This document shows positions 24,031 to 60,888 of a stretch of 64,000 nt of DNA, one piece after another; position 1 is the first letter of the stretch; the number at the start of each line of letters is the position of its first letter. The notes beneath the pieces are model-generated. The model did not search any database, was not told where the DNA came from, and was given only the letters and a program-made list of their open reading frames with translations. The stretch is taken from positions 372,001-436,000 of the forward strand of contig JAOADG010000008.1 of assembly GCA_026417415.1 (NCBI GenBank), written 5' to 3'. The DNA comes from a bacterium (GTDB taxonomy: Bacteria; Electryoneota; JAOADG01). The translations under genes were made by a program, and so were the position numbers.

Positions 24031-24543
24031 TTATTGTTTTGGTTTACTATGATGTTCAATTTTAGGATACCATTCATCCAAGTTAAAGCCCTTAAATGTG
24101 GGGCTCTTTTCGTTATGGCAAACAACGCAATGTTCTTTGGGCTTTTCCACAAAACCATTTTCAATGGCTAATTTTTTATCTTTTGAGTGGGTGGTTTTGT
24201 AAGCAGAACCCGGTCCATGACAAGATTCGCAGTTGACCCCTTCGGTTTTAAATTCTGTTGACGAGATATGGCAGCTTAAGCACTCTTTGTCTTCTTGTGC
24301 AGAACCTTCACGACCAAGTTTTTTCATCACTGCCGCTGCTTCTTCAGTGCCCAAGGTAGCAAAAGCATTCGCATGTTTGGTTTTTTGCCAATCTTCATAA
24401 ATGTTCCCTTTTGCAGCACCCTTATGGCACATCACACATTTAGAATTGCCAATATAGGTAAAGCTTTTTTCGTTTTCTGCAAAAGCAATGATACTCATAG
24501 CCAATACGATGACTACAAGTAAAATAGAAAGAATTGTTTTCAT
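24031..24543 (-). CDS. Tetraheme c554-like cytochrome c
   Basis: Signal peptide; CVMCH, CLSCH, CESCH, CVVCH. Confidence 0.85.
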   Translation of the reverse strand: MKTILSILLVVIVLAMSIIAFAENEKSFTYIGNSKCVMCHKGAAKGNIYEDWQKTKHANAFATLGTEEAAAVMKKLGREGSAQEDKECLSCHISSTEFKTEGVNCESCHGPGSAYKTTHSKDKKLAIENGFVEKPKEHCVVCHNEKSPTFKGFNLDEWYPKIEHHSKPKQ

Positions 24544-24578: not shown

Positions 24579-25166
24579 TTAATTACTTTGAGTCCAGATA
24601 TGACCTGCTGGACCGTGACATCCTGTGCAGGTCAAAGTGGAATCGTTCCAACCAACACCGATTACTTCGGCAAAACCAGTGTCCAAATGACCCGTATCGT
24701 CCCACCGATTCGGTACTTGATGACAACCGGAGCAAGGTAATGGAAGGGATGGAGGAATGGAAGACAAATGAACTTGATGTGCGCCCACTCCACGTGCATT
24801 ACGAGATACGTTCCCGTTTAAATCTGTAGGTGGCGCCCAATTACGTGGTTCTAATGGATTTATACCAATCCCTTTCATACCGTGACAGAAATTGCAATCA
24901 GTAACAGTTATTCGGTTATTTTCAGAATGACACTTTCCACAACTCATACTTTGGTTGCCAAAACCATCAAAATTTGTTCCATGACACGCTGTACATTGTC
25001 CGATATCAAAACCATGACTTCTCAACCATTCATCATGAGTAACGTCTGCAGGTGATGGAAATGGATGTGGGTTTGATGAAAGTGGTACGTAAGATTCATT
25101 AATTTCTGCACCACAGCCAATTACTAAAAAAATAAAAAAAATAGAAATGATCAGATGCACTTGCAT
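24579..25166 (-). CDS. Pentaheme cytochrome c lipoprotein
   Basis: ATG at 25166 gives MQVHLIISIFFIFLVIGC lipobox; CTACH, CGKCH, CNFCH, CSGCH, CTGCH. Confidence 0.82.
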   Translation of the reverse strand: MQVHLIISIFFIFLVIGCGAEINESYVPLSSNPHPFPSPADVTHDEWLRSHGFDIGQCTACHGTNFDGFGNQSMSCGKCHSENNRITVTDCNFCHGMKGIGINPLEPRNWAPPTDLNGNVSRNARGVGAHQVHLSSIPPSLPLPCSGCHQVPNRWDDTGHLDTGFAEVIGVGWNDSTLTCTGCHGPAGHIWTQSN

Positions 25167-25176
25167 AGTTTTCTCC

Positions 25177-25863
25177 TTAATTATGGCACCTGACACAAGT
25201 TGGTTCCTGAGGGCTTTGGTCATGGCAAGCCAGACAACTTTCAAAGTACAATTTACCTTCTTCAGCATGTTTTCCACCAGCTCCAGTATTTGCCCACTGA
25301 TAACCCAATGGATGACGAATGGGAATACTCTTTCTATGACAATCAGTACAAAATTGCCGAGTTTCATGACAACTTAAACAGCGTCCACCCATAGCAGCAT
25401 CGGTTGAATGTTGAAAAATATAGTTTGGACTATGAGGTGAAAGATTTGATGTTGAATTTGAATGGCATTGATCACAACTCGCTTGTTCATGGCAAACGCG
25501 GCATTCCACTAAATTTGCACTGGCGTCCAACCCGTGAATCCTTGAATTCCATTCCGGTGATGTATGATTAAACGGTTTTCCAAAACCGCCGCCTTTAATA
25601 CCAGAAACGTGACAAGTATTGCATTCGTTGGTATTGTTTGTATTATGGCATTCTTTACATTGTTCGTGATTCGGATTTTTTCGGACACCTGCTTTTACTT
25701 CTTTTGCAGAACCATGACATTGAATACAGGTCATTTCTACAGTTTGAAGGTGTAGTGTGTGACTAAACTTTAATGCGGTAACGCTCTCATTTGCTCCAAA
25801 TACTAACCACGTGGTATTTAAAATAAATGTGAAAAGAAAAAGGAGTAAAATTTTGCGAATCAT
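25177..25863 (-). CDS. Nonaheme periplasmic cytochrome c
   Basis: Signal peptide and nine CxxCH motifs (CIQCH, CKECH, CNTCH, CRVCH, CDQCH, CLSCH, CTDCH, CLACH, CVRCH). Confidence 0.85.
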   Translation of the reverse strand: MIRKILLLFLFTFILNTTWLVFGANESVTALKFSHTLHLQTVEMTCIQCHGSAKEVKAGVRKNPNHEQCKECHNTNNTNECNTCHVSGIKGGGFGKPFNHTSPEWNSRIHGLDASANLVECRVCHEQASCDQCHSNSTSNLSPHSPNYIFQHSTDAAMGGRCLSCHETRQFCTDCHRKSIPIRHPLGYQWANTGAGGKHAEEGKLYFESCLACHDQSPQEPTCVRCHN

Positions 25864-27149
25864 CGTGTAATTCCTTGTGAGAAGGTATAAGTCAGTGTAC
25901 CAAGAACTCTACCATCACGTTTAAGTTTAGGATTAGAATAGTATTGGTATTCAAGTTCACCTGTCAAGAATTTGAACCGATTTGGAGTATAGCGAACACC
26001 GGAGATGAAATTGCGTGTGGTTTGCGTTTGAATGCCAACTTCTTCCCATTCTGATTGAATGCTGGATGCTCGCAGATACCAATGGATTTGTTTGAATGCT
26101 TCATAGTAAAGGGATATCCAAGGTCCATTGGACTTAGACAAATATCCGAAAGAATGTTGATAACCAATTTGACCATAAGGTGTAAGACACGCTACACCAA
26201 CTCGATGTCCTTCGTTACCGGAATAATAACTGGTCGCTTCGGTACGAAAGCCCCATTTTGCAGGTACAAAATAATAATCAAAGATGGTCTGCATTCTGGT
26301 CGAAAAGGGAAAAACTGCAATCCCAATGGGTGCGTCAATTTCAGTAGTTTTAGGAAGTTTGAAATTTCGAAACCAACTCGAACTTGAAATTTCTGGACGA
26401 TAAATTCCTATATCACTAAACCATATGATTTTTGACGATGCATACCGAATGCGTAAAGAACTGGTGCGAATATCTTGTGATAGAAGTCGGTATTGAGTAT
26501 TACTTAAAATTGTCCAATGAGCATTGATTCGTCCAAAAAGTTGTAACCCGAGATTGTTTCGGAATTCATTTCCTTCGCGATACTGATCAGCATAGGACAA
26601 TTTCAACATGAATCGTTGGAAAGGATGGAGTTCAAGTTTAGAATACCGAAACTCGCCACCATAGATTGGAGAATGACCTTTAGAAATCTCAAAACGATGA
26701 TTGTCAGGTGATACAATACCACCAAAAACAGTTATCCCCAAATATTTAGAAAGATCCGTTGTGTATTCTAAACCATCTATATTGCCTAATCCTACACCTC
26801 GGTATAGAAAAAAACGACCTATCTTGAATTCAGTATCAGAACCCCATTGACCATATTGCCAATAAGCCGAATACAAATGAAAATCACCTGATTCACTAAA
26901 TTGATCCGCATGATTTCCGCGATACTGAAAATGTGTGTTGAAAGAACTTTGCAAAGGTAAATCACTTAACTGACTCCTAATCCCACTAAACAACCAGAGG
27001 TGGTCTTCACTTCCACTATTTGTGGCGTTTACAAATTGATAAGAGTAAACGCTGGTATAAATACTACTTTGAATTCCAACAGCTGACCCCGTCGACGAAA
27101 AGCCAAGTAAGAAAAGGCAAAAAAGAGTAAAAATTAAAACAAATCTCAT
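25860..27149 (-). CDS. Predicted outer membrane beta-barrel (putative porin of a porin-cytochrome conduit)
   Basis: Signal peptide, no heme motif, no long hydrophobic helix after it. Alternating amphipathic strands with aromatic residues (FKIGRFFLYRGVGLGNIDGLEYTTDLSKYLGITVFGG). Overlaps both neighbours by 4 nt. Confidence 0.65.
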   Translation of the reverse strand: MRFVLIFTLFCLFLLGFSSTGSAVGIQSSIYTSVYSYQFVNATNSGSEDHLWLFSGIRSQLSDLPLQSSFNTHFQYRGNHADQFSESGDFHLYSAYWQYGQWGSDTEFKIGRFFLYRGVGLGNIDGLEYTTDLSKYLGITVFGGIVSPDNHRFEISKGHSPIYGGEFRYSKLELHPFQRFMLKLSYADQYREGNEFRNNLGLQLFGRINAHWTILSNTQYRLLSQDIRTSSLRIRYASSKIIWFSDIGIYRPEISSSSWFRNFKLPKTTEIDAPIGIAVFPFSTRMQTIFDYYFVPAKWGFRTEATSYYSGNEGHRVGVACLTPYGQIGYQHSFGYLSKSNGPWISLYYEAFKQIHWYLRASSIQSEWEEVGIQTQTTRNFISGVRYTPNRFKFLTGELEYQYYSNPKLKRDGRVLGTLTYTFSQGITR

Positions 27150-29818
27150 TTTAACTCCGAATCCGTACTGGAACTTTCATTAACTTTCAGATCCGTTTGA
27201 TCTATATGATCGGCATTATTTAGATGATTCGATGTATCAGAATCAGGGTCACCGGGATGAACAAAATTAGGTTGTCCTAAAGTTGCTTCGGCAGCTTTGC
27301 GATGATGGTGTTCCCATTCCTCTTTGCTCATTCTACCAGTTAAAAAAGTCAAAGATAAAGGATATTGTTTTGGATGGAAAATTACAAAAAAGAAATGCCA
27401 AATTAGGATTGCACCTACTGCTAAAATGGCTTCATAATAATGAATGACGCCCGAAACGCGTACTATCCATCCCGGCGCCCAAGAAGTGATAATTGTAGGG
27501 AACCACAAGATAAATCCGGTCAATCCCATAATGATGGTTCCCCAAACCAATGCCCAGTATTCTGCTTTTTGAGTATAGTCGTAGGTACCAAAATGAGGGG
27601 GGTCTTTACGTAAACGTAAATAATAAAGAACATTTTGAAATGCCAATCGGGTATCTTCTATTTTCGGGTAATAATTCTTTAATTTTTCACGACCGCGTTG
27701 TGTACCAAACAACCAAATGACATGCCAAACGGTGCCGATTAGTAACGTGATTGCTAAGACCCGATGCGTTGTTGCACGTCTAATTTCATTCATTCCAAAG
27801 AAATTCAGAATTTTTACCCACCAAGAATCTGCAAAGCGAAGTGCAAAGCCAGTGATGGCTAATCCAATGAATGTGAATAACAACAACAAGTGTTGCCAAA
27901 TCTCTTGTTTACTCATTCTAACAATGTAATCTTCTTTTTTATGTTTATGATAGTGTTCTCGTAAATAGTAAACGAAGATAATGACATTGTGAATAAGCAT
28001 ACCTCCTAATGTAAGTGCAATGAGGACAATATAAATTACGCGTACATAATCATGTTTTCCCCAAACTTGACCAAATGCTGCATGGGTATAGGATTGGGCA
28101 AATTCTGCATTGGAGTTGGGATGGCATTTCCCACAAGTTTGAATGACATGATTAGGATGTGTAGAGGAAGTAGGATCCAGATGGCTACGGATAGCATGGG
28201 TAGTATGACAATCATTACAGTTGGCAACGATTTGTGATCCTTTTAACGCCCATCCGTGGTAACTGTCTTGATAACTTTTAACTACACCATACCATATTCC
28301 AAAACGATCGGTTAAAGCACGATTCTCATGACATCTACCACAGTCCGATGCTATGTTTAGAGGGTAAGTTCGGGATGCAGGATTGGATTTTGGCAAAATG
28401 TAATGCGATTCGTGACAATCGTTGCAGGTAGGTGAATCAGTTATTCCACGACGTGCGGCTGCACCATGAATTGAAGTCAAATAATCTGCAGCTGCTTGTT
28501 CATGACATTTGCCACAAGCACGAGGTAAATTCTGTCGGTGGGTAATGCTTGCCGGATCACCAGCCGATTGGATTTCGTGGGTACCATGACAATCTGTACA
28601 CAATGCGCCCCTGCTAAGTGTTGTGTCCTGTTTCCATGCCTGCCACTTTTCTGCATGGATAGATTTCATATAATTGGAAAGAGTCATCGGTAAACGCACA
28701 AAATCTGACGTTAGAACCAAACTATCACCATGGCACTTACCACACATTTGTGGTTGATTAAATGGATGGGCCATACTTTTCCGATCGGTCACCCTACGAA
28801 CTCCATGTCCACCATCATGGCAATCCCCGCAATTGGCTGCCACTCCTAAACCTGTCGGATCGTCCCGAAAGTGCATTGAACGTTTATATTCTTCCAATTG
28901 TTGAGAATGGCAATCCCCACAATGAAAAGCTTGTTCGTTTGGTCTAAGATGAATAGAATGACAACTGGCACAAGTCATCTCTTGACTAATCAATTTTGCC
29001 ATATGGACAGATTCACTAAATTCATTCATGGACTTATGGTGACAAGCCAAGCAATTGGAAAATGCATCGTTGGATTTTTTTGGATTTGGAATTCCGTGCG
29101 GATCGTGACAACTGCTGCAAGAAACTTTAGCTACTAAACTATCAGTTGGTATGGGTTGATGTATACCGTGGATCCCATGAGGACCGTTTTTTAAGCGTGC
29201 CATCGCATCAATATGGCAATTTTGGCAGGTCTTTGTGATGGATACTGGGTCATTGAGTTTAATTTCGCCATGAGGTTTATGACAAGTTGCGCAAGCGTGT
29301 CCATCTTTTGAAGGGAATACTTTGAAATGTTTACTGGATTGAAATTGTTTACTTTCTTCACTATGACATTTGGTACAAGATAAACCTGCTACTCCGCTCG
29401 CATTTGAACCTATCCGATGCATATCACCATTGATGGTGTGGCAATCTTTGCATTGTGCTGCGATAAAAGGAGATGTTCCACCACCTGTGCCATGAACTGA
29501 TTTTCGCCAATTTTCTGTAATTCCTTCATGACAATCATCGCAGTTAACTGGAGTGTATTTCGTATAGTGAGGTACATCATCATAATTCCCTGCCGAATGG
29601 CAATCAATGCAATTTAGATTTCCATGTGCGCTTTTAGAATACTCTGAAGTTACAAACATCTTTCTATTATCACTACTTTTTAATGAAGCATCTGAGTGGC
29701 ACATCATACAGTACTCATTGGATTGCCATTCTGATTGTGCTGCAAAAGAAGTATCAAAAAATGAGAATGAGAAAATGAAAGATAAAAATAGAGAAAAAAG
29801 TGTTTTCGTTAGTTTCAT
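27146..29818 (-). CDS. 19-heme cytochrome c fused to a C-terminal FdnI/HydC-like cytochrome b membrane domain
   Basis: 19 CxxCH motifs counted by hand, then TM helices with His residues (HNVIIFVYYLREHYHKHKKEDYIVRMSKQEIWQHLLLLFTFIGLAITGFALRF...HRVLAITLLIGTVWHVIWLF). Confidence 0.88.
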   Translation of the reverse strand: MKLTKTLFSLFLSFIFSFSFFDTSFAAQSEWQSNEYCMMCHSDASLKSSDNRKMFVTSEYSKSAHGNLNCIDCHSAGNYDDVPHYTKYTPVNCDDCHEGITENWRKSVHGTGGGTSPFIAAQCKDCHTINGDMHRIGSNASGVAGLSCTKCHSEESKQFQSSKHFKVFPSKDGHACATCHKPHGEIKLNDPVSITKTCQNCHIDAMARLKNGPHGIHGIHQPIPTDSLVAKVSCSSCHDPHGIPNPKKSNDAFSNCLACHHKSMNEFSESVHMAKLISQEMTCASCHSIHLRPNEQAFHCGDCHSQQLEEYKRSMHFRDDPTGLGVAANCGDCHDGGHGVRRVTDRKSMAHPFNQPQMCGKCHGDSLVLTSDFVRLPMTLSNYMKSIHAEKWQAWKQDTTLSRGALCTDCHGTHEIQSAGDPASITHRQNLPRACGKCHEQAAADYLTSIHGAAARRGITDSPTCNDCHESHYILPKSNPASRTYPLNIASDCGRCHENRALTDRFGIWYGVVKSYQDSYHGWALKGSQIVANCNDCHTTHAIRSHLDPTSSTHPNHVIQTCGKCHPNSNAEFAQSYTHAAFGQVWGKHDYVRVIYIVLIALTLGGMLIHNVIIFVYYLREHYHKHKKEDYIVRMSKQEIWQHLLLLFTFIGLAITGFALRFADSWWVKILNFFGMNEIRRATTHRVLAITLLIGTVWHVIWLFGTQRGREKLKNYYPKIEDTRLAFQNVLYYLRLRKDPPHFGTYDYTQKAEYWALVWGTIIMGLTGFILWFPTIITSWAPGWIVRVSGVIHYYEAILAVGAILIWHFFFVIFHPKQYPLSLTFLTGRMSKEEWEHHHRKAAEATLGQPNFVHPGDPDSDTSNHLNNADHIDQTDLKVNESSSTDSELK

Positions 29819-29986: not shown

Positions 29987-32011
29987 TTATCGGATTAAAA
30001 TAGATTTGAGCAGTTTTTCTGTCAATTCAGGATTGTGTGCACCATTTGATCCATCATTCTTCACAGAAAGATAATTCTTACGTGTTTTCATACTAAGCGT
30101 TGAAAGGTTCATTTTTTCTACTGAATCTAACAATACACGAGTCATTTGTTGCCACTCTTTGCCCATTTTTATGTAACTTGCATCATGGCAATCCCCGCAT
30201 TGTTCTGTTGTAGGACGAATAATTTCTAATCCTGTTCCATGACAAGCAGTACATTCAACACCAGCTTCTGCCATCAGTGATGGTAAGGGTTTACCATCGT
30301 TTGCTGTGCCCAAGTACATCGCTTTTTGATATGTATGACAATGCTTACAACTTGTTTCGTCTTTGGCATTGGCATGATGACATTCTATACAATTATTACC
30401 TTTGGTTAACGTTACACCATGTTGTGTAGTGCTATGACAATCAGAACATTGGATCCCTTTTGAAAGGTGAATGGAATGGGGAAAGGTCTTTTGCCCCACC
30501 AACACTCCAATCGCATCAATCCCCGTGTGGCAATCATAACATTTAAGATTATGGGGTAGTGCTGGAGTACTTTTTTTCGTAAGTGCTTCTTTTTGACCTG
30601 TGAGCAATTCTAACGATTTTTCTAAAAGTGCATTTGCATATTTCGGATTGTGCCATCCACCTGCTTGCCGTACCAATTGATAATTGATGGTTGCTCTTTG
30701 GATTGCATCTTGTGAAACGGTGCGATTGTTTTTTGCAACTTGTAACGCCTCTTGAACATTCTGCAACTTGATTTGGAATGAAGTTTTCCATTGAGTAGTT
30801 AATTTTTGATAACTTGGATCATGACAAGGTAAACAATTGGCTTTTACAGGTTTATTCAATAAAAAGTGATCTTGATTGGTTGGATGGCTATGACAAGATT
30901 CGCAATTTAATCCTGCTTTCCACATAATATCTGGCTGTTCAGCAACCTCAACCCCGCCAGTTCCACGAAACAGCATTTCAGTAGCACTATGCAAATCCGA
31001 GTGACAACGGTTACAGTCGGTAATGGTAGTTTGTGCTTTGGATAAAGAAATATGTTGAATAGTGGTATGACAATTCTGACAATCTACTTTTCGTTCTGTT
31101 ACATGTTTTTGATGCATAAATTCAATTTCGTGAATTCTATCAATGTGATCTCTGGAGGCGTGGCAAATGTTGCAACGTTCATGAGGAACCTCACCGTTGC
31201 CAACTTTCATAGGGCCATGGCACATTTGACATTCAACTTGTTTCTTTATCCATTCAGTATGATCAAACTTTGGTTCCGGTTTCCCAACTTCTTTTACGGG
31301 AGCGGAATGACATTGGGTACAATGAACAGTACTCCCTTTTTGAAAGACATTACGATTGTTCAAATGCGAAGGAGAATCATTAGAAGAGGCAAAAGCCACA
31401 CTACTCGGAACATCTTTGAAATGACATAAAAAACACGTAGATTCTGTTACAGTGATATGAGCCCCTTGAACAATTTGGCCATGGCAAGAAGTGCAACGTA
31501 ATTGTTTGTTACGTACTTCGTGGGATAAGTGACTTTCATGATTGAATTTGATTCCTTGTTTCCATTCTAATGGTCCTACCAATAATCGTGATTCATGACA
31601 GTCACTGGTTGTACAATTTTGATCTTCAATTTCTGCCCAAGGTTTAGAACGTTTATAAACACCAGTTGCATAGTTAACCAACATGGAAGCTGCTACAAAC
31701 TTCCCTTCTATCTTACCTTTTAATCCAGGGGGGATATGACAGGTAATGCAATCCACATGTTTATGCGAAGAAGTTTCCCAACTTGCAAAATAAGGTTCCA
31801 TAATGTGGCAGGAACGGCAAAAGGCTGGTTGAGAAGTTGCTTTCACAAATACAACTGCAGTAATAACAGTGAGAATCACTCCTGCTAAGATAAGAAGAAT
31901 GATTTGACGAGCGCCTAAAGAAAAAAACCGTTGAAAACCAATTTTAGTAAGGGTAAAAGGAAGTAAAAAAACAACTTTAAGCGCTGATAAAAATTCTTTG
32001 AATAATTTCAT
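29987..32011 (-). CDS. NapC/NirT-type 18-heme membrane-anchored cytochrome c
   Basis: N-terminal TM anchor followed by FCRSCHIMEPYFASWETSSHKHVDCITCHIPPG (NapC/NirT-like). 17 CxxCH plus one CX4CH (CTTSDCH). Confidence 0.88.
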   Translation of the reverse strand: MKLFKEFLSALKVVFLLPFTLTKIGFQRFFSLGARQIILLILAGVILTVITAVVFVKATSQPAFCRSCHIMEPYFASWETSSHKHVDCITCHIPPGLKGKIEGKFVAASMLVNYATGVYKRSKPWAEIEDQNCTTSDCHESRLLVGPLEWKQGIKFNHESHLSHEVRNKQLRCTSCHGQIVQGAHITVTESTCFLCHFKDVPSSVAFASSNDSPSHLNNRNVFQKGSTVHCTQCHSAPVKEVGKPEPKFDHTEWIKKQVECQMCHGPMKVGNGEVPHERCNICHASRDHIDRIHEIEFMHQKHVTERKVDCQNCHTTIQHISLSKAQTTITDCNRCHSDLHSATEMLFRGTGGVEVAEQPDIMWKAGLNCESCHSHPTNQDHFLLNKPVKANCLPCHDPSYQKLTTQWKTSFQIKLQNVQEALQVAKNNRTVSQDAIQRATINYQLVRQAGGWHNPKYANALLEKSLELLTGQKEALTKKSTPALPHNLKCYDCHTGIDAIGVLVGQKTFPHSIHLSKGIQCSDCHSTTQHGVTLTKGNNCIECHHANAKDETSCKHCHTYQKAMYLGTANDGKPLPSLMAEAGVECTACHGTGLEIIRPTTEQCGDCHDASYIKMGKEWQQMTRVLLDSVEKMNLSTLSMKTRKNYLSVKNDGSNGAHNPELTEKLLKSILIR

Positions 32012-32132
32012 ACCATCAAGAAGCAAGTTCAAAAATTGGAAAAGGAAAATTTATAGAAAAGTGACGCACACAAAATAATCAAAGAATAAATTAAGAACCA
32101 ATCATTGTGAAAAAATTATTTTTGATACCATT

Positions 32133-32549
32133 CTATTTTTTATGACATGCAGTACAATTTTTATTGGAATGACAAGTGAAGCAACTTTCGTGAAGTACAA
32201 CTTTACTCTCTTGCACATCCCAACGAGTAACTTCCTTCTGATGACAATGACTGCAACTTTCAACGTGGTGGCATTCAATACACTGAATTTTCAAATCATG
32301 CTCGTGTAACTTGTGATTAAATACAATTTGCGTACCACCCAGGTATTTGGTTTGAAATACTTTTTCATCTGGAATAGGCCGTTTACGATTTGTCCAATCA
32401 TACAAGATTGAAGGTTCAGCTATCTTTGCACTATCTGATGGCTTTACTTCAACGGGTGCTTTTGTTTTGGGGTCTTTCGAATAAGCGTTCAACAGGAATA
32501 GAACCAGTGTATTCGTAAAAAGCAGAAATACAATCAAATATTTTTTCAT
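32133..32549 (-). CDS. Small tetraheme cytochrome c (c3/c7-like)
   Basis: Signal peptide; CIECH, CSHCH, CFTCH, CTACH. Confidence 0.85.
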   Translation of the reverse strand: MKKYLIVFLLFTNTLVLFLLNAYSKDPKTKAPVEVKPSDSAKIAEPSILYDWTNRKRPIPDEKVFQTKYLGGTQIVFNHKLHEHDLKIQCIECHHVESCSHCHQKEVTRWDVQESKVVLHESCFTCHSNKNCTACHKK

Positions 32550-32557
32550 ATTGACTC

Positions 32558-33766
32558 CTAAGTTGTTTCAACCATTTTCAAAGGTACAGTTTGATGCTCG
32601 TGGTTAGTGGTTTCTTCGTGTTCATGTTCAGGGAAAATTGGAAAGAATCGTGCTATAAAATAAAATGCCATGGTACCTATTGTGACTAAAAATAGTGAAA
32701 TCGCAATTTCGCTGTAAGAGGGATAATAGTTGGCATTTGATTGCCTTAGCATTCCAATCCAGCAAACATTGAAACGATTGTAAACAACGCCTACAACTAC
32801 TAGAAAGGCGGAAAAGAAAATCCAACGTGGGTTTTGTCTAAGTTTTTTTAGTCCTAAAAGAATAACAGGGACAATAAAGAAAGTCATTTCTAAAAGACCA
32901 TGAATACTTTCAAATGAACCTGTGAAAAATTCTTTGAATGCATCACGGATATAGAAATCTTGAAGTTTCACTCCGATGTAGATAATTAATGCAATTAACA
33001 AAAATCCAGCTAATTCAACTAGTACGGGTTTCTCCAAACTACGATGAAATGCTTTTGCACTAAATGTTGATTCAACAATAACCATTGCAGGTCCAACCAC
33101 AATCGCAGAGAGATAAAACATCAAAGGTAACATCGGTGTGTACCAAATAGGATGAAGTTTTTCAGGCACAATCAAGAATACTGAACCTAATGAAGATTGG
33201 TGTAATGTGGAAAGTAATATCCCTGCAATCACCAATGGGATAGTGGCGCGTTGCATAAATTTCAACAAACGGTGGAACTTGAATTTTTCTAATACTACAG
33301 GTAAAAATTCTAAGAATAGTACTGTTAAATACAACATCACACACCATGCAACTTCAAACATCACTGAATGGTGATTCCACATGATTACAGGATGCCATAC
33401 ATTGTAGTACTTTCCTAAATCGTACAGTAAGCCAACAGCAACTAAAGCATACCCTAAAAAAGCCGTAAGAACAGTAGCACGGACAACCGAATGAAATTTA
33501 TGATACCCAATTAAGTACACTAAAAAACACAACGTAAAACCACCAGCTGCTAATGCAACACCACTTACTACGTCAAAAGCAATCCAGAATCCCCAAGGAA
33601 ATTCATCCGATAAATTGGTGGTCGCACCAAGCCCTTTAGTAAAACGTACTATTGTTAAATAAATCCCTTGGATAATGATCAATAGATAAATGATCCAACG
33701 GATTTTACGAAAAGTACTCATTCCACGAATTTCAGTGCGTAGAAAAGAAACAACTGTTTGAAACAT
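32558..33766 (-). CDS. NrfD/PsrC/HybB-family integral membrane quinone-interacting subunit
   Basis: About 10 TM helices; GATTNLSDEFPWGFWIAFDVVSGVALAAGGFTLCFLVYLIG is HybB/NrfD-like. Start trimmed to 33766, adjacent to the Fe-S gene stop. Confidence 0.88.
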   Translation of the reverse strand: MFQTVVSFLRTEIRGMSTFRKIRWIIYLLIIIQGIYLTIVRFTKGLGATTNLSDEFPWGFWIAFDVVSGVALAAGGFTLCFLVYLIGYHKFHSVVRATVLTAFLGYALVAVGLLYDLGKYYNVWHPVIMWNHHSVMFEVAWCVMLYLTVLFLEFLPVVLEKFKFHRLLKFMQRATIPLVIAGILLSTLHQSSLGSVFLIVPEKLHPIWYTPMLPLMFYLSAIVVGPAMVIVESTFSAKAFHRSLEKPVLVELAGFLLIALIIYIGVKLQDFYIRDAFKEFFTGSFESIHGLLEMTFFIVPVILLGLKKLRQNPRWIFFSAFLVVVGVVYNRFNVCWIGMLRQSNANYYPSYSEIAISLFLVTIGTMAFYFIARFFPIFPEHEHEETTNHEHQTVPLKMVETT

Positions 33767-33767
33767 T

Positions 33768-34538
33768 CTAAGAATCCTTATCTTTTTTTCGTTTTTCAGA
33801 TCGAGAGGTTTCTTTATGTTCTTGCTCAAGAGACATTCTACGGTTTACTAACCAAGATATTCCACCTAACAGAATAGCGCCTGTAATCACCACATTCGGA
33901 ATTCTTCTGAGAACAGTACCAGTAAGTTCTGGAAGTTCAACTTCCGGTAAATCAGTTCTAAAACCAAGTTCTTCAAATGGAATACTACTTAACATCAAAA
34001 CTGAAGTTCCACCAACTTCTGTTTCTCCATAAACTTTATGAACATAACGATTTGGAAAAGTTAAAATTCGTTTGTGCGCAATTTCTAATAAGTACTCTCG
34101 ATCACCGAATCTACATGCTCCTGTTGGACAAACCCATGCACATGCTGTTGGAAGACCTTCTTTTACACGCTGGTGACACATGATACACTTACGAATGACA
34201 GGAATGGGTTTATCCCATTCATATTTTGGAATTTGAAAGGGGCAAGCCATCATACAGTAACGGCATCCCATACATTTACTGGGATAGTAAATGACAGGGC
34301 CGTTCTCCGTTTTTTCTAACGCAGCTACAGGACAAACGGAAACACAAGCCGGATGTAAACAATGCATACACATTTTGCGAAAATATTGGTGGTTTCGCTT
34401 GAGTACTACAGTAAAGTTTTTATAGTTTAATTTATCGTCAGGGGCATCGGAAGGAAGGTTATTTTCTTTAGCACAATATTCTTCGCATGCCTGACAACCA
34501 ACACAGCGTGTGAAATCCAAAAGCAAAGCTTTACTCAT
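33768..34538 (-). CDS. 4Fe-4S ferredoxin-type subunit (HybA/DmsB-like) with C-terminal TM anchor
   Basis: CVGCQACEEYC, CMHCLHPACVSVCP, CMGCRYCMMACP, CIMCHQRV...CAWVCPTGA. C-terminal VITGAILLGGISWLV helix. Confidence 0.9.
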   Translation of the reverse strand: MSKALLLDFTRCVGCQACEEYCAKENNLPSDAPDDKLNYKNFTVVLKRNHQYFRKMCMHCLHPACVSVCPVAALEKTENGPVIYYPSKCMGCRYCMMACPFQIPKYEWDKPIPVIRKCIMCHQRVKEGLPTACAWVCPTGACRFGDREYLLEIAHKRILTFPNRYVHKVYGETEVGGTSVLMLSSIPFEELGFRTDLPEVELPELTGTVLRRIPNVVITGAILLGGISWLVNRRMSLEQEHKETSRSEKRKKDKDS

Positions 34539-48465: not shown

Positions 48466-51400
48466 TTGAAAAATACATTCAATTTGTTCCGAAATAAATT
48501 TTCTACCTCAACAATAAGATTTGGGATAATCTTATTTTCTGTATTTGCTTGGGTTGCAACGGCTTCAACTCCATCAGTTGTACGTCTCAATATCAAACCA
48601 TCTTTACCACTTGTGCCTGATCCTTTTGAAAAAACGGGAAGACGTTTTCCAACATTAGGTTCCAGCCCTGCAATGCTTCTAGGTGGTTACCACAATTGGC
48701 TGATCCTTAAAGTCGAAATGGATACATTGACAAAAAACATTTATACCCAATATCAGTTAAAAAATAAACCATTTGGGAAACCCTTCGTACAAACATTATC
48801 CGAGTATAAAATTGCAAGATTAGAAAACAACAAAAAAAGATTATTTGCAGACGCTGCCTACAAAGCAGTTAGTTCTTATCGTGAACAACCCAAAGAAGCA
48901 CTTGAGATACAAGTTCCTTTGAAAGTCAAATCCAAAGTATTCAATCGCATTTTTGGGGGTGATCGTGTTGGATTACGAGTAAATGGTGAACTATCAATCA
49001 ACGGTGAAATACGAAAAGAATCTACTGATAGACAAATCACGCAGCAAGGTCAACAAGCAGCGACCAACTTTAAAATCGACCAAAAACAACGTTTTACAAT
49101 TACTGGAAATGTAGGTGACAAAGTTTCTGTTCGGATTGATCAAGATAGTGAGAGGTTATTTGAATTTGAAAACGCAATCAAACTTGAATATACCGGAAAT
49201 GAAGATGAAATCATTCAAAAAATTGAAGCCGGAAACATTTCGTTAGAATTACCCGGAACGCAATTGGCAACATTTTCGGGCCAAAATAGAGGGCTTTTTG
49301 GACTTAAGAGCATTTCAAAAATCGGACCACTAAAACTAACCACTATTGCTTCATTAGAAAAAGGTAAAAAAAACAAGTTAAAAATTTCAAACGGTGAGCA
49401 ACAAAGAGTTATTCAAATTCAAGATATCAATTTTATTAGTGGACAGTATTTTGCTTTAGATTCTGCTAATTATCTTAATGCCATTCGTAGTTTCGGACCT
49501 AACTTTTCTACCGACATTGGTGTCCCAAACGATCTGATCATTCGCGAAATTTATGTTTATGTATCTCAATCTCAAATCATTGGTGGACAAATCCCTATCC
49601 GTGGTTATGCAATGGCTTCGCCACCTAACCCAGCACAATTTGATACAGCCAATTTTACAGCAGATAATAGAAACAATTTTGTTGCCCAATTTGTTCGATT
49701 ACAAGAATCTGATTACACCATTGACATTAATCGTGGACTTTTAACCCTTAAAAGGCCGTTACAATATGGGCAAATCTTAGCAGTTGCTTATCGAACGGAT
49801 CGTGAAATTGTTGGTACACAACAAATATCACCACAAACACCACATTTAGTCCTCAAGTTGCTTCGTGGGCAGACGGATGACCCACAATCGGCAGTTTGGA
49901 ATTTGATGTTAAGAAATGTCTATTCCCTACAAGGAACGGATATTTCAAAAGACAACTTTGAAGCAACCATGTACAGAAGTTATACTAATCCACCACAACA
50001 AAGTAGAAACAATGTTTTCTATACGCATATATTTGGATTAGATAACAACGCTCCGAATGGTACACCTGTGATGAACGGCGATGGTTTGATTGATGTTATC
50101 CCCTCACTCATTGACTTACAAAATGGTGTCTTAAAATTTCCTGATTTAACTCCTTTTAACCCTTCTGGTTACTTTGTAAATGGGCAATTGGTAACCTATC
50201 AACTTGATTCAGCCGAAAAAAATCCATTGCTTTACCTAACCCCTAATCCACAAACTTCAGGCATTACATCAAAATTTTATATAGAAGCGAAGGTGCGTTC
50301 AAGGTCAAATACTCTAAATCTTGGAATAGCAGTATTAGAAAACTCCGAAGAAGTCACGTTGAACAATACAATTCGATTGGTGCGAGGCCGAGATTACACC
50401 ATAGATTATTTTTCTGGTACCTTAACCCTACTGGATCCACGTGCTTTAGCTCCCGGTGCTGATGTTGATGTCACTTATGAATCAGGGCAGATTTTTCAAT
50501 TAGATAGAAAAACTTTATTGGGAGTACGTGCAGAGTATGAATTATGGGATGAGTCCTTTGTGGGCTTTACTTTTCTATCTTTAAACGAAAAACCATTAGA
50601 CAAAAGAATTCGCTTGGGTAGCGAACCCATATCCAATAAAATATGGGACATTAATACCCGAATGGTTTTTCGTCCTACTTTATTTACGAAAATGATGGAC
50701 GCACTACCGTTAGTATCCACTGAAGAACCATCTCGAGCGGTTCTTGAGGGTGAGATAGCCCAAGTATTCCCAAATCCCAATACAATGACCAATGCATCTA
50801 CTGGTGATTACAACGGGATAGCGTATGTAGATGATTTTGAGTCCGCAAAACGAACCACACCGATTTCATTAAACCGATCTTACTGGTCATTGTCCGCGTT
50901 TCCCAAATCAGATTACATTCAACCTTCAGACAATTTAGCACCTTTTCAAGCCAGAGAATTCCGATGGTACAATCCCTTTAATCAAACTCCAATCAAAGAC
51001 ATATGGCCCAATCGAGATGTAAACAGCAACGTTGCCAATACGACTCAAACACTGGTATTGGAGTTTGATCCCAAAACTACAAGACAAGGTGTAGCAGATA
51101 CGACCATTTCGCCGAGAACATCTTGGGGTGCAATCACTCGATTTTTGGGGGGTGGCTATGCGAATCAACAAGAAGCGAAATATGTTGAAATTTGGCTAAA
51201 AAAAGAACGCGGGACAAACGGAAAACTGTTTATCGATCTTGGTAGAATCAGTGAGGATATCATCCCTGACGGTAGGGATCAACCAAGTACAGAAGATAAT
51301 CCTATTGTTGCAGGAACCAATCAAGGAGATGGCATTCTTTCACAGGCAGAGGATATTGGGTTAGATAGAATGGCTGGGAGTGATCCCAATGACTTTTGGG

Positions 51401-54400
51401 ATATTAATCGTAACGGAATTCGAGATTCTGCTGAAATTGTGGTCGGCACAACAAGAAAAACGGTGATGGAGCCGTTATCCTTTGATGATTATCTCAATGA
51501 ATCAAATTACAACGTGTACACAAAAATTAATGGTACTGAAGGAAATCGGTTGGATGAAGGCGGAAATGATCCTGATACTGAAGATTTAAATGGGAATGGA
51601 GTTACAGATAGACAAGACGATTTTTATCGCTTCATCATTGATATTGGCAATCCTAACTCTCCATACATTGCAGGAGGAAGAGACAATCCAAAAGGATGGT
51701 ATTTATACCGAATTCCTATCTCAGATACCTTACGTGTCAATAATCCCGATTTACAAAATATTTTCTATATACGTATTGGTTTAACTGATTTTTCTCAAGC
51801 AGTTGCAATTAACATTGCTGAAATCAATATCGTTGGAAATGAATGGAGACCACCAGGTCCTTATTCGTTACAGCGGACGGAATACCCGTTAGAAGCAGAT
51901 GTCATCAACACAGTGGATAATTATGACCCCAATAGCCCTGCTGGGTATGTTCCACCACCGGGAGTTTCTGGTGAGATAGATCCAATTACCGAAGTTAGGC
52001 AAAAAGAGCAATCACTAAGAATAAGAGTGAAAGAGCTTCCCACAGGACATTCCAGCTATTTGGTAAAACAATTGTATGAACCCATCAATTTACTTGAATA
52101 CAGAAGATTAAAAATGTTTATCCATGGGGGTGCATTTCAAACGAAATTGATATCTAACACCACACCGATTAATTCTTTTGACCGGTATCACGTGTATTTC
52201 AAATTAAGAATGGGGACCGATTCAACCCATAACTATTATGAGATTGCTAAGAGAATTTATACAGGGTGGGACCAAAGAAATCACATTGATATTCAATTAG
52301 AAGATTTGCCAACCTTAAAGTATGAAAGAATCACGCAAAATGCGGGATTGCCAGATACGACTACAAGAATGACAACCAAGATACTTGCTGACGGAACAGA
52401 AATTCGAGTTCGAGGGAATCCAACGTTGCAGCAGGTACGTGTGTTTAGCGTGGTTGTAGAGAACCGTGGCATTCCAATTACAGAAAATGACAAAGTCGAA
52501 ATTTGGGCAGATGAATTGCGGGTAACCGAAGTCAAACGTACGCCAGGATTGGCCTATCGGTTGTCTTCTGATTTAGATTTTGCGAAAATTATGGGAATAC
52601 GATTTCAATTATCACAGACCGATGGTAACTTTCATAACGTTAACGTTCGTACCGGTAGTAAGAACACAACTATTACAGGGACTGCAAATGCAAATATCAA
52701 ATTAGATGAATGGTTTCCAAAAGGCCTAAAGTTAAATTTTCCTCTTGCGACTACTTTTTCGCAAACCATTTCTAAACCTGATTATTTGAATAATGGAGAT
52801 ATTTCTTTGGATCGTTTAGCGGGTAGAACCCTAAACGTATGGGATCCTTTCTGGAAACACATCGTAACCAATCGATTTTTAAATTTCAAAGCAGGTGAAG
52901 GTGGTGATGATACTTTGTTATCGTACCAGAAACAATACAGTATTGGAGTAAACGGTCTTTCCAGAGTAGGAACGCCGACCGAATGGTGGGAAAAATGGTT
53001 GGTCAATCAAATCACAACTTCTGCCTCCCAAAACGAATCGTATAGTGCTTCTCCGACTTTACGTTATCAAAAACTTATAACAAGAACAGGTGCTATTGCC
53101 TACAATGTTCCAATTGAATTTGGGGAAGGTTTGAAGGTATTTGGTTGGACAAAAAATATACCATTTTTTAAGAAATTGTCTGAATCGAGATTAGGATATT
53201 ATCCGAATCGATTTACTTTAAACTACCAATTCAATGAACAGGTTGGCTCAAGCGCCACCAGAGAACGAAACATCCCCACAGACAATTGGTCTTTCGGTAT
53301 AAGTAGAAGTGTACAAACAGGGTACCGTTTCTTTCAAAATTGGAACTGGGAGTACGCTTTAAGCACACGTTTTAATGCGGTGCGGACGGAACGCGACCGT
53401 GTGCGTATAGGGTATGCAGCACGTGGATTTGATTTTATGTACACTGATACAGCACGCTATCGTGATTCTTCAGTTGTTTATCCAACCTTACCAGATAGTA
53501 TTGCTGGATTAAAACCAGATTTAAAGATATTTCAAAAGTTAGGTGGTTACTATTTAATCAAAGATCAATCAGACCAAAGTATATCTACCAACTGGTCGCC
53601 TTCCATACTTAGTTGGTTAGGAACAGATTACCGTTATACTACGCAATACACGTGGAATTGGGGAGCAAATTATGCATCTACGGGAAGAGGTGTTGCTTCC
53701 AGAACCAATGCAGATCAAACCTACACACTACGACTTAAACAACTGTTGAGAAGAGAATCTTCACCTCAAGAGACCCCGCGCAGAGGAAATGAATCTCAAA
53801 ACACCAGAAGAATGCGTTCGTTGGATAAGGGTGTCGGGGAGAAAAACTTTTCCACACCCAATCCAGAAGATTTCCAACCGAGTGATTCCCTAGAAAATAT
53901 CCAAGGGGGAAGAGGACGCAGGCGACGTCAATCGGTTTCAGAAAGCACTACCTATCAGGATACATCCAAAAAAACCATCAACTTTTTCCAGTTGTTCGGA
54001 AAATTATTAGATAAAATGGATGATATCACCATATCAATCCGAAGAAATCGTGAATATGCATTTCCTGCTGTTCAATCAGGACAAGCAGATTGGCGTTTTC
54101 AACTTGGGCTTTCAAATAATCCAAAATTAAAATCTATAGAGCGCGTGATAACGCGTCCAAGTGCAAGATTAACCAGAGATTATGAAAGTCGTACCAATCT
54201 TCGTCTCACACAAGATATTCTGGTCGGATTAGATCATAAGTGGTCAATTCAAGAAATCAATCAGGGGAATCGTTCAGAGATAAGACAACGCACAATTTTT
54301 ATGTTGAAGAACCCAGACGGTACCCCTAAATCACTGGATTTACCAAACTTTTCAATTCGTTGGTCTGGGTTCGAGAAATCTACTCCATTAAAAGATTTGG

Positions 54401-54999
54401 TTCAATCCATCACATTAGAAAACAGTTATCAAGCAACATCTACATCCAATTATGGATTTCGGCAAAATCCCGGTGACTCAATACAAGTTAAGTACATTGG
54501 AAGCATTGACTACACAAAAAATTGGAATCCATTAATTGGAGTTAACATCACTTGGAAAAATCGTATAACTACCACTATACGTTACAACAACACTTCTACT
54601 TTCAATGATAGTCGGCAAGGCAGGGAACAAAGAAGGAGATCAAGTCAAACCAATTTGCAAGTTTCAGCAGGTTATACTTGGCAAAAGGGGTTTCGTATTC
54701 CTCTTAAGTTTTGGCCCTTTAATAACAAATACTTCAAAAATCAATCGGAATTGTCGTTATCATTTAATCAATCTGAAACTAAAACAGAAAGTGCTGATAA
54801 ATTGTTGACAGGATGGTCTCCTTTTGTTGAAACTGCTGCTACCAGTACTTATACTCTTACTCCAAAGTTTACTATGACGTTCAGTCGTTCAGTAACGGGT
54901 TACATTCAATACGAAATGGGAGCGAATAAAACCAAAGGTGGGACAAGCACAAAAATTAATGCATTAAAATTTAACGTAAGCATCCAAATTAGAGGTTAA
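48466..54999 (+). CDS. sprA: SprA/Sov-like giant outer membrane T9SS translocon protein
   Basis: 2177 aa; VPLKVKSKVFNRIFGGDRVGLRVNGELSINGEIRKE, KAGNISLELPGTQLATFSGQNRGLFGLKS-like, YVDDFESAKRTTPISLNRSYW. TTG start. Confidence 0.92.
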   Translation: MKNTFNLFRNKFSTSTIRFGIILFSVFAWVATASTPSVVRLNIKPSLPLVPDPFEKTGRRFPTLGSSPAMLLGGYHNWLILKVEMDTLTKNIYTQYQLKNKPFGKPFVQTLSEYKIARLENNKKRLFADAAYKAVSSYREQPKEALEIQVPLKVKSKVFNRIFGGDRVGLRVNGELSINGEIRKESTDRQITQQGQQAATNFKIDQKQRFTITGNVGDKVSVRIDQDSERLFEFENAIKLEYTGNEDEIIQKIEAGNISLELPGTQLATFSGQNRGLFGLKSISKIGPLKLTTIASLEKGKKNKLKISNGEQQRVIQIQDINFISGQYFALDSANYLNAIRSFGPNFSTDIGVPNDLIIREIYVYVSQSQIIGGQIPIRGYAMASPPNPAQFDTANFTADNRNNFVAQFVRLQESDYTIDINRGLLTLKRPLQYGQILAVAYRTDREIVGTQQISPQTPHLVLKLLRGQTDDPQSAVWNLMLRNVYSLQGTDISKDNFEATMYRSYTNPPQQSRNNVFYTHIFGLDNNAPNGTPVMNGDGLIDVIPSLIDLQNGVLKFPDLTPFNPSGYFVNGQLVTYQLDSAEKNPLLYLTPNPQTSGITSKFYIEAKVRSRSNTLNLGIAVLENSEEVTLNNTIRLVRGRDYTIDYFSGTLTLLDPRALAPGADVDVTYESGQIFQLDRKTLLGVRAEYELWDESFVGFTFLSLNEKPLDKRIRLGSEPISNKIWDINTRMVFRPTLFTKMMDALPLVSTEEPSRAVLEGEIAQVFPNPNTMTNASTGDYNGIAYVDDFESAKRTTPISLNRSYWSLSAFPKSDYIQPSDNLAPFQAREFRWYNPFNQTPIKDIWPNRDVNSNVANTTQTLVLEFDPKTTRQGVADTTISPRTSWGAITRFLGGGYANQQEAKYVEIWLKKERGTNGKLFIDLGRISEDIIPDGRDQPSTEDNPIVAGTNQGDGILSQAEDIGLDRMAGSDPNDFWDINRNGIRDSAEIVVGTTRKTVMEPLSFDDYLNESNYNVYTKINGTEGNRLDEGGNDPDTEDLNGNGVTDRQDDFYRFIIDIGNPNSPYIAGGRDNPKGWYLYRIPISDTLRVNNPDLQNIFYIRIGLTDFSQAVAINIAEINIVGNEWRPPGPYSLQRTEYPLEADVINTVDNYDPNSPAGYVPPPGVSGEIDPITEVRQKEQSLRIRVKELPTGHSSYLVKQLYEPINLLEYRRLKMFIHGGAFQTKLISNTTPINSFDRYHVYFKLRMGTDSTHNYYEIAKRIYTGWDQRNHIDIQLEDLPTLKYERITQNAGLPDTTTRMTTKILADGTEIRVRGNPTLQQVRVFSVVVENRGIPITENDKVEIWADELRVTEVKRTPGLAYRLSSDLDFAKIMGIRFQLSQTDGNFHNVNVRTGSKNTTITGTANANIKLDEWFPKGLKLNFPLATTFSQTISKPDYLNNGDISLDRLAGRTLNVWDPFWKHIVTNRFLNFKAGEGGDDTLLSYQKQYSIGVNGLSRVGTPTEWWEKWLVNQITTSASQNESYSASPTLRYQKLITRTGAIAYNVPIEFGEGLKVFGWTKNIPFFKKLSESRLGYYPNRFTLNYQFNEQVGSSATRERNIPTDNWSFGISRSVQTGYRFFQNWNWEYALSTRFNAVRTERDRVRIGYAARGFDFMYTDTARYRDSSVVYPTLPDSIAGLKPDLKIFQKLGGYYLIKDQSDQSISTNWSPSILSWLGTDYRYTTQYTWNWGANYASTGRGVASRTNADQTYTLRLKQLLRRESSPQETPRRGNESQNTRRMRSLDKGVGEKNFSTPNPEDFQPSDSLENIQGGRGRRRRQSVSESTTYQDTSKKTINFFQLFGKLLDKMDDITISIRRNREYAFPAVQSGQADWRFQLGLSNNPKLKSIERVITRPSARLTRDYESRTNLRLTQDILVGLDHKWSIQEINQGNRSEIRQRTIFMLKNPDGTPKSLDLPNFSIRWSGFEKSTPLKDLVQSITLENSYQATSTSNYGFRQNPGDSIQVKYIGSIDYTKNWNPLIGVNITWKNRITTTIRYNNTSTFNDSRQGREQRRRSSQTNLQVSAGYTWQKGFRIPLKFWPFNNKYFKNQSELSLSFNQSETKTESADKLLTGWSPFVETAATSTYTLTPKFTMTFSRSVTGYIQYEMGANKTKGGTSTKINALKFNVSIQIRG

Positions 55000-58445: not shown

Positions 58446-59456
58446 TTAAGGATTATCTCCATAAGTTACATTACGAAAAGTTCGTGGTGGGTTAAAGTAA
58501 TTTGCATTTTGTTGCCATCCTGCATAACCAAACTTCATGTTTACGGCACGATAACCCAACGCATTTAAGTATGTAGTTGCATATGCACCTGAATGTCCGG
58601 TGTAGCAGTAAATCACAATTAGACGATTCGAGGGTAGTTTGCGTAATGTAGCAACATCATTCAAATCGCGAACAAATACGTTTCTGGCAGTGGGGATATG
58701 ACCAGCAGCGTAATCGGTAGCTTGACGAACATCAAGAATGAAGATGTTTGCACCAGCATTTAAAGAATCGCGAACAGCTGCAGCACTAATCACTGCTGTT
58801 GCTGTTGAAAGATAATTGTTTAGAGCAGTACGAACATCACCGGAACTTGGTTCAGGATAAGCATTGTAATCTTCTAAAGCATAAGCCACAGTATCTACTG
58901 TACCATTAATCGCTGACGTTGAAGTATAATGGCCTGTAAAGTTCAAACCATTAGCGTTGTTATCATCTGTCCACCCGCTCATTCCATATTTAAAGTTCAC
59001 AACGTTGTATCCTAATGCGCCTAATGCAGCAGTTGCTAATCCACCTGTATGGCCCGTAAAACAATACACTACTAATCGTTTCGTTTTGTTTCTAGTCCAA
59101 GTGTTTAACAAACTTTCATAGTTTGGATTAGCAACAGATTTCCACCATAATAAATGCGCACCCGGAATGTGGCCACCATACGGGGGATTTGCTGTCGGGT
59201 TTCCGCGATATACTGCGCTATCCCTAACATCCAAAACTACATAGTTGGTATCATTTAGAACTGGTTCCAATTGAGTAGCAGTCATTACAAAGGATGCAGT
59301 ATCAATGAAGCTGTTGAATGCATTGAAGATGTTCATAAAGTTTTGTGATGGAGTTACTGGTTGTGGAGCTGTAGGGCTTGTATCGTCGTCAGAGCAACCA
59401 ACTACCAAAATCACAAATAAACTGAAAAGAACAAAAGTGATGAATTTACTTTTCAT
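58446..59456 (-). CDS. Double rhodanese-domain lipoprotein
   Basis: Lipobox ILVVGC. Two domains, each with a Cys loop: LVVYCFTGHTGG and VIYCYTGHSGA, with LDVRDSAVYRG and LDVRQATDYAAGHIP. Confidence 0.88.
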   Translation of the reverse strand: MKSKFITFVLFSLFVILVVGCSDDDTSPTAPQPVTPSQNFMNIFNAFNSFIDTASFVMTATQLEPVLNDTNYVVLDVRDSAVYRGNPTANPPYGGHIPGAHLLWWKSVANPNYESLLNTWTRNKTKRLVVYCFTGHTGGLATAALGALGYNVVNFKYGMSGWTDDNNANGLNFTGHYTSTSAINGTVDTVAYALEDYNAYPEPSSGDVRTALNNYLSTATAVISAAAVRDSLNAGANIFILDVRQATDYAAGHIPTARNVFVRDLNDVATLRKLPSNRLIVIYCYTGHSGAYATTYLNALGYRAVNMKFGYAGWQQNANYFNPPRTFRNVTYGDNP

Positions 59457-59469
59457 TCGGTTTCCTCCT

Positions 59470-60888
59470 TTAATTTTCATGTTTCCCCGGTATTAGTGGC
59501 GGGGCGTTGGTGATTACATTGCGATTTGCATCGCGTTCTATTTCGTGCATTAATCCATGTTGGATTAAACTGTCAAGAAAACTTTCTGTTAAAAAGAACT
59601 CATTTCTACCATGGCAATTGTTACAAACGGGAATAGTCGTACGTCTTCCTAAACTATCTATGACAACACGAGAATTTTGTGGTGTATGTTTTTGAATATT
59701 ATGAGGTGTTGCCATCATCCAAGTTGCATCATTAATGTAATTCGGAAGTGATAAATTCCAGGGTTGCATATAAGTATTTGGAGATATTGGGATGTGACGG
59801 ACAACCACGTAATCATATTCATTCCGATCAAGGCGTGGGTTACGTCCAATTTTAAAATCAAAACTTGTCGTATCTACGACAAAACCGGTATCCATTGCAT
59901 GGCAACTGTAACAACTTTTAATTTTAACACTGTGGCAAACATTGCATTGAACACGAGAATGTTGAAGACCATGTTGTGGATTAGTTGAATTGGATAGGTT
60001 ATGGCATTGTGTACAGCTGGCGCGTGGTGTCACATTGTAACGATGTGGATAGGTCTGATTACTTTTTGCAGAATGCATTTCAAATTCATTATGGCAACTC
60101 ATACACGTCATACCCCTACGATGATGAACATCGGCACTTCCACCAGGAACTTCGCCACGAAAATCTGCACCAACTCTTGCACCATGGCAAGCAATGCAAT
60201 TCAAATCTTGATTTGGAGTTCGATTAAAGCGATGACCATTTACAAAACCACTCTTGACTGAACGTGGCATACTGATGTGACATTCACCACATGTGGTATG
60301 GCAAGCAATACAACGACGTTCAAACATCGGCCAATATTGTGAATGAGTGGTATCACCGCCGCGCTTGACAAATTGTCCGTGATATCCTGCTTGAGTGTAA
60401 TGAATTGATTGACGATGGGCATTTACAATGCCTTCATGACAATTTCTACAAACTCCACCGCCATTTTCTGCAGAAGGATCACGAATCAATCCAACGTGCG
60501 CACTATCTTTTGGCAAAAATCCATCACGTCCACTATGACAAGTGATACACCGAATACTAGCATGCGGATCATTTCTAAGATAATCCATAGAAACTAAAAC
60601 TTTTTCATGTGCTGGAACCTCCGGCACAGAACCACCTCAACCATCGCCTTGTATTTGATTGGAATACTTACGTAGCGGCCCTGAAGAAACTGAATGTGGT
60701 TGGGTCCCTTGTGAAGGACCTAATGTTGCCAGCAATGCGTTGGCATTTGTGTGGCAACTGATACAATCTCCTTTGGTTAAATCAGAGGTTGGACTGGTTG
60801 GAATGGGTTTAAATGAATCTTCTTTAAGACAAGAATTGTATAGAAAAAGAGAAACAAGTAAAAGAAGAACCATTAGTTTTCTAAACAT
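59470..60888 (-). CDS. 11-heme cytochrome c lipoprotein interrupted by in-frame TGA (candidate selenoprotein or nonsense/sequence error)
   Basis: ORFs 60637..60888 (lipobox LFLYNSC, CISCH) and 59470..60627 (ten CxxCH, no signal peptide) are in the same frame, separated by TGA 60637-60639 and three sense codons (GGS) before GTG 60627: ...NQIQGDG-(TGA)-GGSVPEVPAHEKV... Confidence 0.8.
60608..60628 (-). promoter_or_regulatory. Hairpin downstream of in-frame TGA, SECIS-like
   Basis: UGA-GGUGGUUC-[UGUGC C GGA (GGU) UCC A GCACA]: 5 bp, one mismatch, 3 bp, GGU apical loop starting 17 nt after UGA. Confidence 0.35.

Follow-up and report, generated by a model that had tools for sequence, protein, structure and literature searches.

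A gene trio of Candidatus Electryoneota that very probably encodes an outer membrane electron conduit of the Pcc family

Three consecutive genes on the minus strand of a Candidatus Electryoneota (AABM5-125-24) contig raise the question of whether this bacterium encodes a route for electrons across its outer membrane and, if so, to which known kind of conduit that route belongs. The genes lie in a 64,000-nucleotide stretch of DNA, here called the window. The original prediction had described overlapping or near-overlapping genes for a barrel, a 9-heme protein with a signal, and a 5-heme lipoprotein of about 195 aa, and had proposed them as a new porin-cytochrome conduit. All three genes were found, and they are closely coupled: those of the barrel and the 9-heme protein overlap by 4 bp, and 10 nt precede the lipoprotein gene. 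The part list and the conduit reading are well supported by barrel homology, heme counts, a lipobox, and conserved gene order. The conduit is not a new kind, because its barrel falls in the Pcc family. We are confident that the trio is a Pcc electron conduit of the OmbB-OmaB-OmcB/ExtABCD/ExtEFG family, on a divergent Electryoneota branch, and as judged from sequences and models it very probably functions as such in the outer membrane.

The barrel gene (25860..27149) encodes a protein of 429 aa with a hydrophobic signal at residues 3-21 and no heme motifs. Its AF2 model, built with eight sequences and of moderate quality only (pTM, 0.67; mean pLDDT, 76.8), contains 22 strands. The first strand starts at residue 24, immediately past the signal, and a plug domain is absent. 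The folds closest to the model were 22-strand TonB-receptor barrels (Z of 19.6 and below, residues 24-424; VIA). In TonB-dependent receptors, a globular plug fills the lumen of the barrel; such an identity was rejected here because no plug precedes the strands and no Pfam match was obtained. Sequence searches of the window barrel against Pfam, NCBIfam, and PDB sequences returned no match, and taken together with those of its family they were blank or generic. In Foldseek, the model retrieved numerous small porins and ranked substrate porins (OprD/Occ family, chitoporin) high; MtrB was absent among the matches listed, which is uninformative either way. The ideal radius of a 22-strand barrel is approximately 20 Å, compared with 16.5 Å for 18 strands and 23.5 Å for 26 strands, and a c-type heme wire is therefore not excluded by size. 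Barrel positions assigned to the lumen by strand parity are polar and show somewhat higher conservation than those facing lipid. Among the invariant strand residues, 24/32 face the lumen, and of these 24, seven are arginine. A conserved polar lumen of this kind, as modeled, would fit a fixed protein occupant; ordinary porins may trend alike, and we take the pattern as supporting evidence only.

The family of the barrel was determined by comparison with barrels from a genome family called Geobacterales-like on account of its member G345, which holds three PpcA-type genes over the cut-off. These reference barrels were assigned as Geobacter type (OmbB/ExtB/ExtE) on the basis of gene layout and PpcA markers rather than of named accessions. 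The barrel family is present in 31 of the 40 Geobacterales-like genomes, with up to 6 copies each among the matches listed. Three layouts were recognized: an ombB-omaB-omcB layout of barrel, 8-heme protein of 223-250 aa, and 9-12-heme lipoprotein (L165, L185, L187, L188, and L194); an extABCD layout of 11-heme protein, barrel, 5-heme lipoprotein, and multiheme lipoprotein (L163, L169-L171, and L191); and an extEFG-like layout of barrel, 5-heme lipoprotein, and large multiheme protein (L164, L186, and L193). An HMM made from the Geobacterales-like barrels only matched the window barrel with an E value of 1.4e-19, its sole match among the window open reading frames (ORFs). When the HMM was restricted to the five OmbB-layout barrels, it proved too narrow, reaching 7 relatives without reaching the window barrel. 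With hhalign, the profile of the window clade scored 99.0% against the Ext-layout set and 96.9% against the OmbB-layout set, and a wider Electryoneota profile scored 99.8% and 99.3%, respectively, while reversed and column-shuffled controls gave at most 0.4%.

Neither an MtrB nor an OmbB signature had been noticed in the barrel beforehand. The first half of that observation stands: PF11854 (MtrB/PioB) matched neither the barrel family, at E values up to 5, nor anything in the genome, and the profile comparison yielded nothing for MtrB/PioB, so this family was rejected. The second half does not, since the same comparison places the barrel in the Pcc (OmbB/ExtB/ExtE) family. The decaheme periplasmic cytochrome of MtrCAB/PioAB has no equivalent in the trio, whose periplasmic protein carries 9 CXXCH motifs. 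An ExtI-type barrel (ExtHIJKL) was likewise rejected, with hhalign giving approximately 1% against barrels beside ExtM/ExtN. Published Pcc systems have barrels of 18-22 strands, with 5-14 hemes in the periplasmic cytochrome and 1-15 in the outer one (Shi et al. 2014; PMC4245776). The 22 strands, 9 hemes, and 5 hemes of the window all lie within these ranges, and the homologous barrel is adjoined by genes for a secreted 9-heme protein and a 5-heme lipoprotein.

Among named systems, OmbB-OmaB-OmcB of Geobacter sulfurreducens shares with the window the gene order (barrel, periplasmic multiheme protein, lipoprotein multiheme protein), a homologous barrel (96.9-99.3% in hhalign), and similar sizes of the barrel and periplasmic cytochrome. 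It differs in having 8 rather than 9 periplasmic hemes and a 12-heme outer lipoprotein where the window encodes 5 hemes in 195 aa; the window barrel, moreover, belongs to a distinct clade, and its operon includes inner membrane modules. Barrels homologous to that of the window are also found in ExtABCD and ExtEFG of Geobacter (99.0-99.8%), where the periplasmic cytochrome is unlike the window's in position, encoded first in ExtABCD and last in ExtEFG. Each of these two systems has a pentaheme outer lipoprotein, ExtC or ExtF, as described in a 2018 study of Geobacter conduits (PMC6148476). The count of five CXXCH motifs in the outer cytochrome is correct; the suggestion that it is unusual is not borne out, given these precedents and the 1-15 hemes of Pcc systems. 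The likeness to ExtC and ExtF is one of heme count; in alignments, the window protein goes with larger lipoproteins of its own phylum. MtrCAB of Shewanella has the same working principle and part list, but it differs in its 26-28 strands, its 10-heme inner wire, and an outer cytochrome with twice the hemes of that in the window, and its PF11854 domain is not matched by the window barrel.

The middle gene (25177..25863) encodes a secreted c-type cytochrome of 228 aa, with a signal segment at residues 5-23 and exactly 9 CXXCH motifs, which we propose as the heme wire of the lumen and periplasm. It matches PF14522 (E=1.9e-10), can be aligned with 11-12-heme relatives, and resembles the MtrA chain of 6r2q weakly at the profile level; its AF2 model was unusable (pLDDT, 45). 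The third gene (24579..25166) encodes the lipoprotein cytochrome of 195 aa, the proposed outer cap, with the lipobox FLVIGC and 5 CXXCH motifs. Its start in the ORF list is 25367; the ATG at 25166 is the likely one, because it has a ribosome site (AAGGAG), stands 10 nt past the stop of the 9-heme gene, and precedes the coding sequence of a signal peptide with a lipobox. The protein is a shortened relative of the 6-12-heme lipoproteins of the phylum, without the C-terminal stretch in which these carry two more motifs, and the sister genus encodes an equivalent 5-heme lipoprotein of 198 aa. The lipoprotein might instead face the periplasm and merely feed the wire, leaving a conduit of barrel and 9-heme protein. 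Some Pcc clusters, in Anaeromyxobacter and Kuenenia, are without an outer cytochrome (PMC4245776), and sidedness is unreadable from sequence. However, gene order and lipobox are as in outer lipoproteins of the OmcB/ExtC type, and relatives carry up to 24 hemes at the lipoprotein position. In Escherichia coli, Asp at position +2 keeps lipoproteins in the inner membrane; the residue here is Gly. Placement on the periplasmic side is accordingly quite improbable, and surface exposure is the reading we favor. In loci L032-L041, the trio lipoproteins carry an acidic stretch directly past the lipidated cysteine (for example, C-GSEVADDW and C-SSEVDSEF), possibly a surface-export signal resembling, by analogy, that of Bacteroidota.

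Relatives of the trio were searched by barrel sequence alone and not by hemes. The barrel is present in 25/39 sampled Candidatus Electryoneota genomes, and the order of barrel, 9-12-heme protein, and multiheme lipoprotein was constant in the phylum loci read, occurring 16 times besides the window and mostly with the 4-bp overlap kept; from this recurrence, the arrangement is not a product of chance. The lipoprotein at this position has 4 to 24 hemes across the phylum loci, which illustrates the range that an outer cytochrome can cover at one gene position within one phylum. Outside the phylum, the barrel family was found in 41 of the sampled genomes. A multiheme cytochrome gene stands beside the barrel in 39 of 40 further loci (39 of these loci outside the phylum), and the remaining locus is cut at a contig end. 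As these loci were found via the barrel rather than via hemes, they test the conduit reading independently. They also bear on a rival account, in favor of which OprD/Occ-family porins and chitoporin stood high in the Foldseek ranking, namely, that the barrel is a common substrate porin with periplasmic cytochromes as chance neighbors. Against the near-constant presence of multiheme cytochromes beside homologous barrels, the 22 strands, and the homology to barrels in conduit layouts, this account is highly implausible. Phylogenetically, among 76 barrels placed in one tree, that of the window pairs with that of the sister genus inside an Electryoneota clade (support, 100/100). This clade is separate from the OmbB and Ext clades, with one outside row nested within it and with weak support for the deepest branches.

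Barrels with still larger neighbors were seen as well. A second barrel type, larger than the first and distantly related to it, is encoded in L047 (G003:C2) after the genes of a 20-heme and a 31-heme protein, and it also appears as matches of 530-584 aa in G009, G017, G022, G033, and G034; it may belong to a further conduit that holds many more hemes. In L143, L152, and L153, members of the barrel family directly adjoin proteins of about 920-960 aa that carry 22 to 33 hemes.

The trio had been delimited as three genes; the transcription unit is larger. The trio is among the last genes of an operon of nine on the minus strand, at the start of which lie quinol-linked inner membrane modules. In order of transcription, the genes upstream of the barrel encode an HmcB/HybA-like iron-sulfur protein (33768..34538; PF13247, E=2.3e-22; NF045715 HmcB, E=6.7e-73, below the cut-off); an NrfD/HmcC-like (HybB-like) integral membrane subunit (32558..33829; PF03916, E=5.8e-20; NF045714 HmcC, E=2.5e-100, below the cut-off); a secreted 4-heme cytochrome (32133..32549; 4 CXXCH); a NapC/NrfH-anchored 17-heme cytochrome (29987..32032; 17 CXXCH, one N-terminal transmembrane segment, PF03264, E=2.1e-9); and an inner membrane 19-heme cytochrome fused to a b561-type cytochrome b in a CbcL-like layout (27146..29818; 19 CXXCH, 5 C-terminal transmembrane segments, PF01292, E=3.6e-16), whose gene also overlaps that of the barrel by 4 bp. 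Directly downstream of the trio is a gene for a secreted 4-heme cytochrome with a c554 domain (24031..24543; PF13435, E=1.9e-12). Such a gene is also found 3' of the trio in most window-clade relatives, making the conserved unit a quartet.

Inner membrane modules of these types exchange electrons between quinol and multiheme carriers. We infer that the products of the trio form a complex, in which the 22-strand plugless barrel would span the outer membrane, the 9-heme cytochrome would serve as a heme wire in and below the barrel lumen, and the 5-heme lipoprotein would cap the barrel on its outer side. Electrons would then pass from quinol through the inner membrane multiheme modules to the periplasmic 4-heme carriers, onward to the 9-heme wire and the 5-heme lipoprotein, and from there to an extracellular acceptor. 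The same conduit could also run in reverse, taking up electrons supplied from outside the cell (by Fe(II), a mineral, or a partner cell) for delivery to the quinone pool. Homologous conduits are reversible in principle, and NrfD/HmcC-like and cytochrome b modules are able to run either way; however, the NapC-type and CbcL-like modules of the operon are quinol oxidizers in known cases, making uptake unlikely and outward flow the direction that we prefer. Pcc clusters with an inner membrane cytochrome resembling the cytochrome b of formate dehydrogenase have already been described (PMC4245776).

The machine itself is known from Geobacter, and its presence in Candidatus Electryoneota appears to be unreported: no earlier report was found in the literature searched, although reports elsewhere are possible. 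An open paper on the phylum mentions neither porin, conduit, nor multiheme, and the phylum is unnamed in the main text of a 2025 Nature survey of iron-oxide respiration. A single barrel family, unnamed in Pfam and NCBIfam, joins the OmbB-layout and Ext-layout barrels of Geobacter with conduits of many lineages and so offers a simple marker for extracellular electron transfer. With inner membrane modules and conduit in one operon, the locus is also a compact target for reconstitution.

Two further genes on the minus strand of the window, 32 kb from the trio, encode candidate partners only. The first (59470..60888) is split by translation table 11 at an in-frame TGA (60637-60639); with this TGA read as selenocysteine (Sec), as appears to be the case, it specifies a multiheme lipoprotein of 472 aa with 11 CXXCH motifs; the second (58446..59480) specifies a rhodanese lipoprotein of 344 aa (PF00581, E=1.4e-31, two rhodanese stretches). 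Among the best 24 loci with homologues of the Sec cytochrome in 386 sampled genomes (L207-L227, L229, and L230 among them), 23 have the in-frame TGA, preceded by a segment with a single CXXCH and followed by the multiheme C-terminal part, mostly in the context G-E-G-[TGA]-G-G (GEG-U-GG), and 22 have a rhodanese gene next door. The genome encodes a tRNA-Sec with anticodon TCA and a SelB over the cut-off. A SECIS-like hairpin just past the TGA has both-side changes in 5/6 pairs, and its covariation score was unmatched by any of 500 shuffles, both in a small set of 8 sequences. Geobacter ExtH/ExtKL comprises similar parts, a rhodanese lipoprotein and a Sec cytochrome. The NCBIfam ExtKL models did not match the window protein, and the multiheme cytochrome selenoprotein given in a 2026 review of selenoproteomes is ExtKL (NF040886); judged by sequence, the Sec lipoprotein may represent a selenoprotein family not described before. 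In L035, L036, L046, L116, L120, L121, and L123, the pair is located near a Pcc barrel, in several genomes immediately next to it. Tentatively, the conduit could be the half that crosses the membrane in a more extensive redox system of the cell surface, with the Sec cytochrome and rhodanese lipoprotein among the components of its outer end, a proposal that we consider less probable than not. If true, the conduit with these partners would serve surface sulfur or selenium species and not metal oxides. The Sec cytochrome, a side finding here, may outweigh the conduit in importance. Elsewhere in the window, an ORF of 2177 aa (48466-54999, plus strand) encodes a protein that may be similar to SprA, a component of the type IX secretion system.
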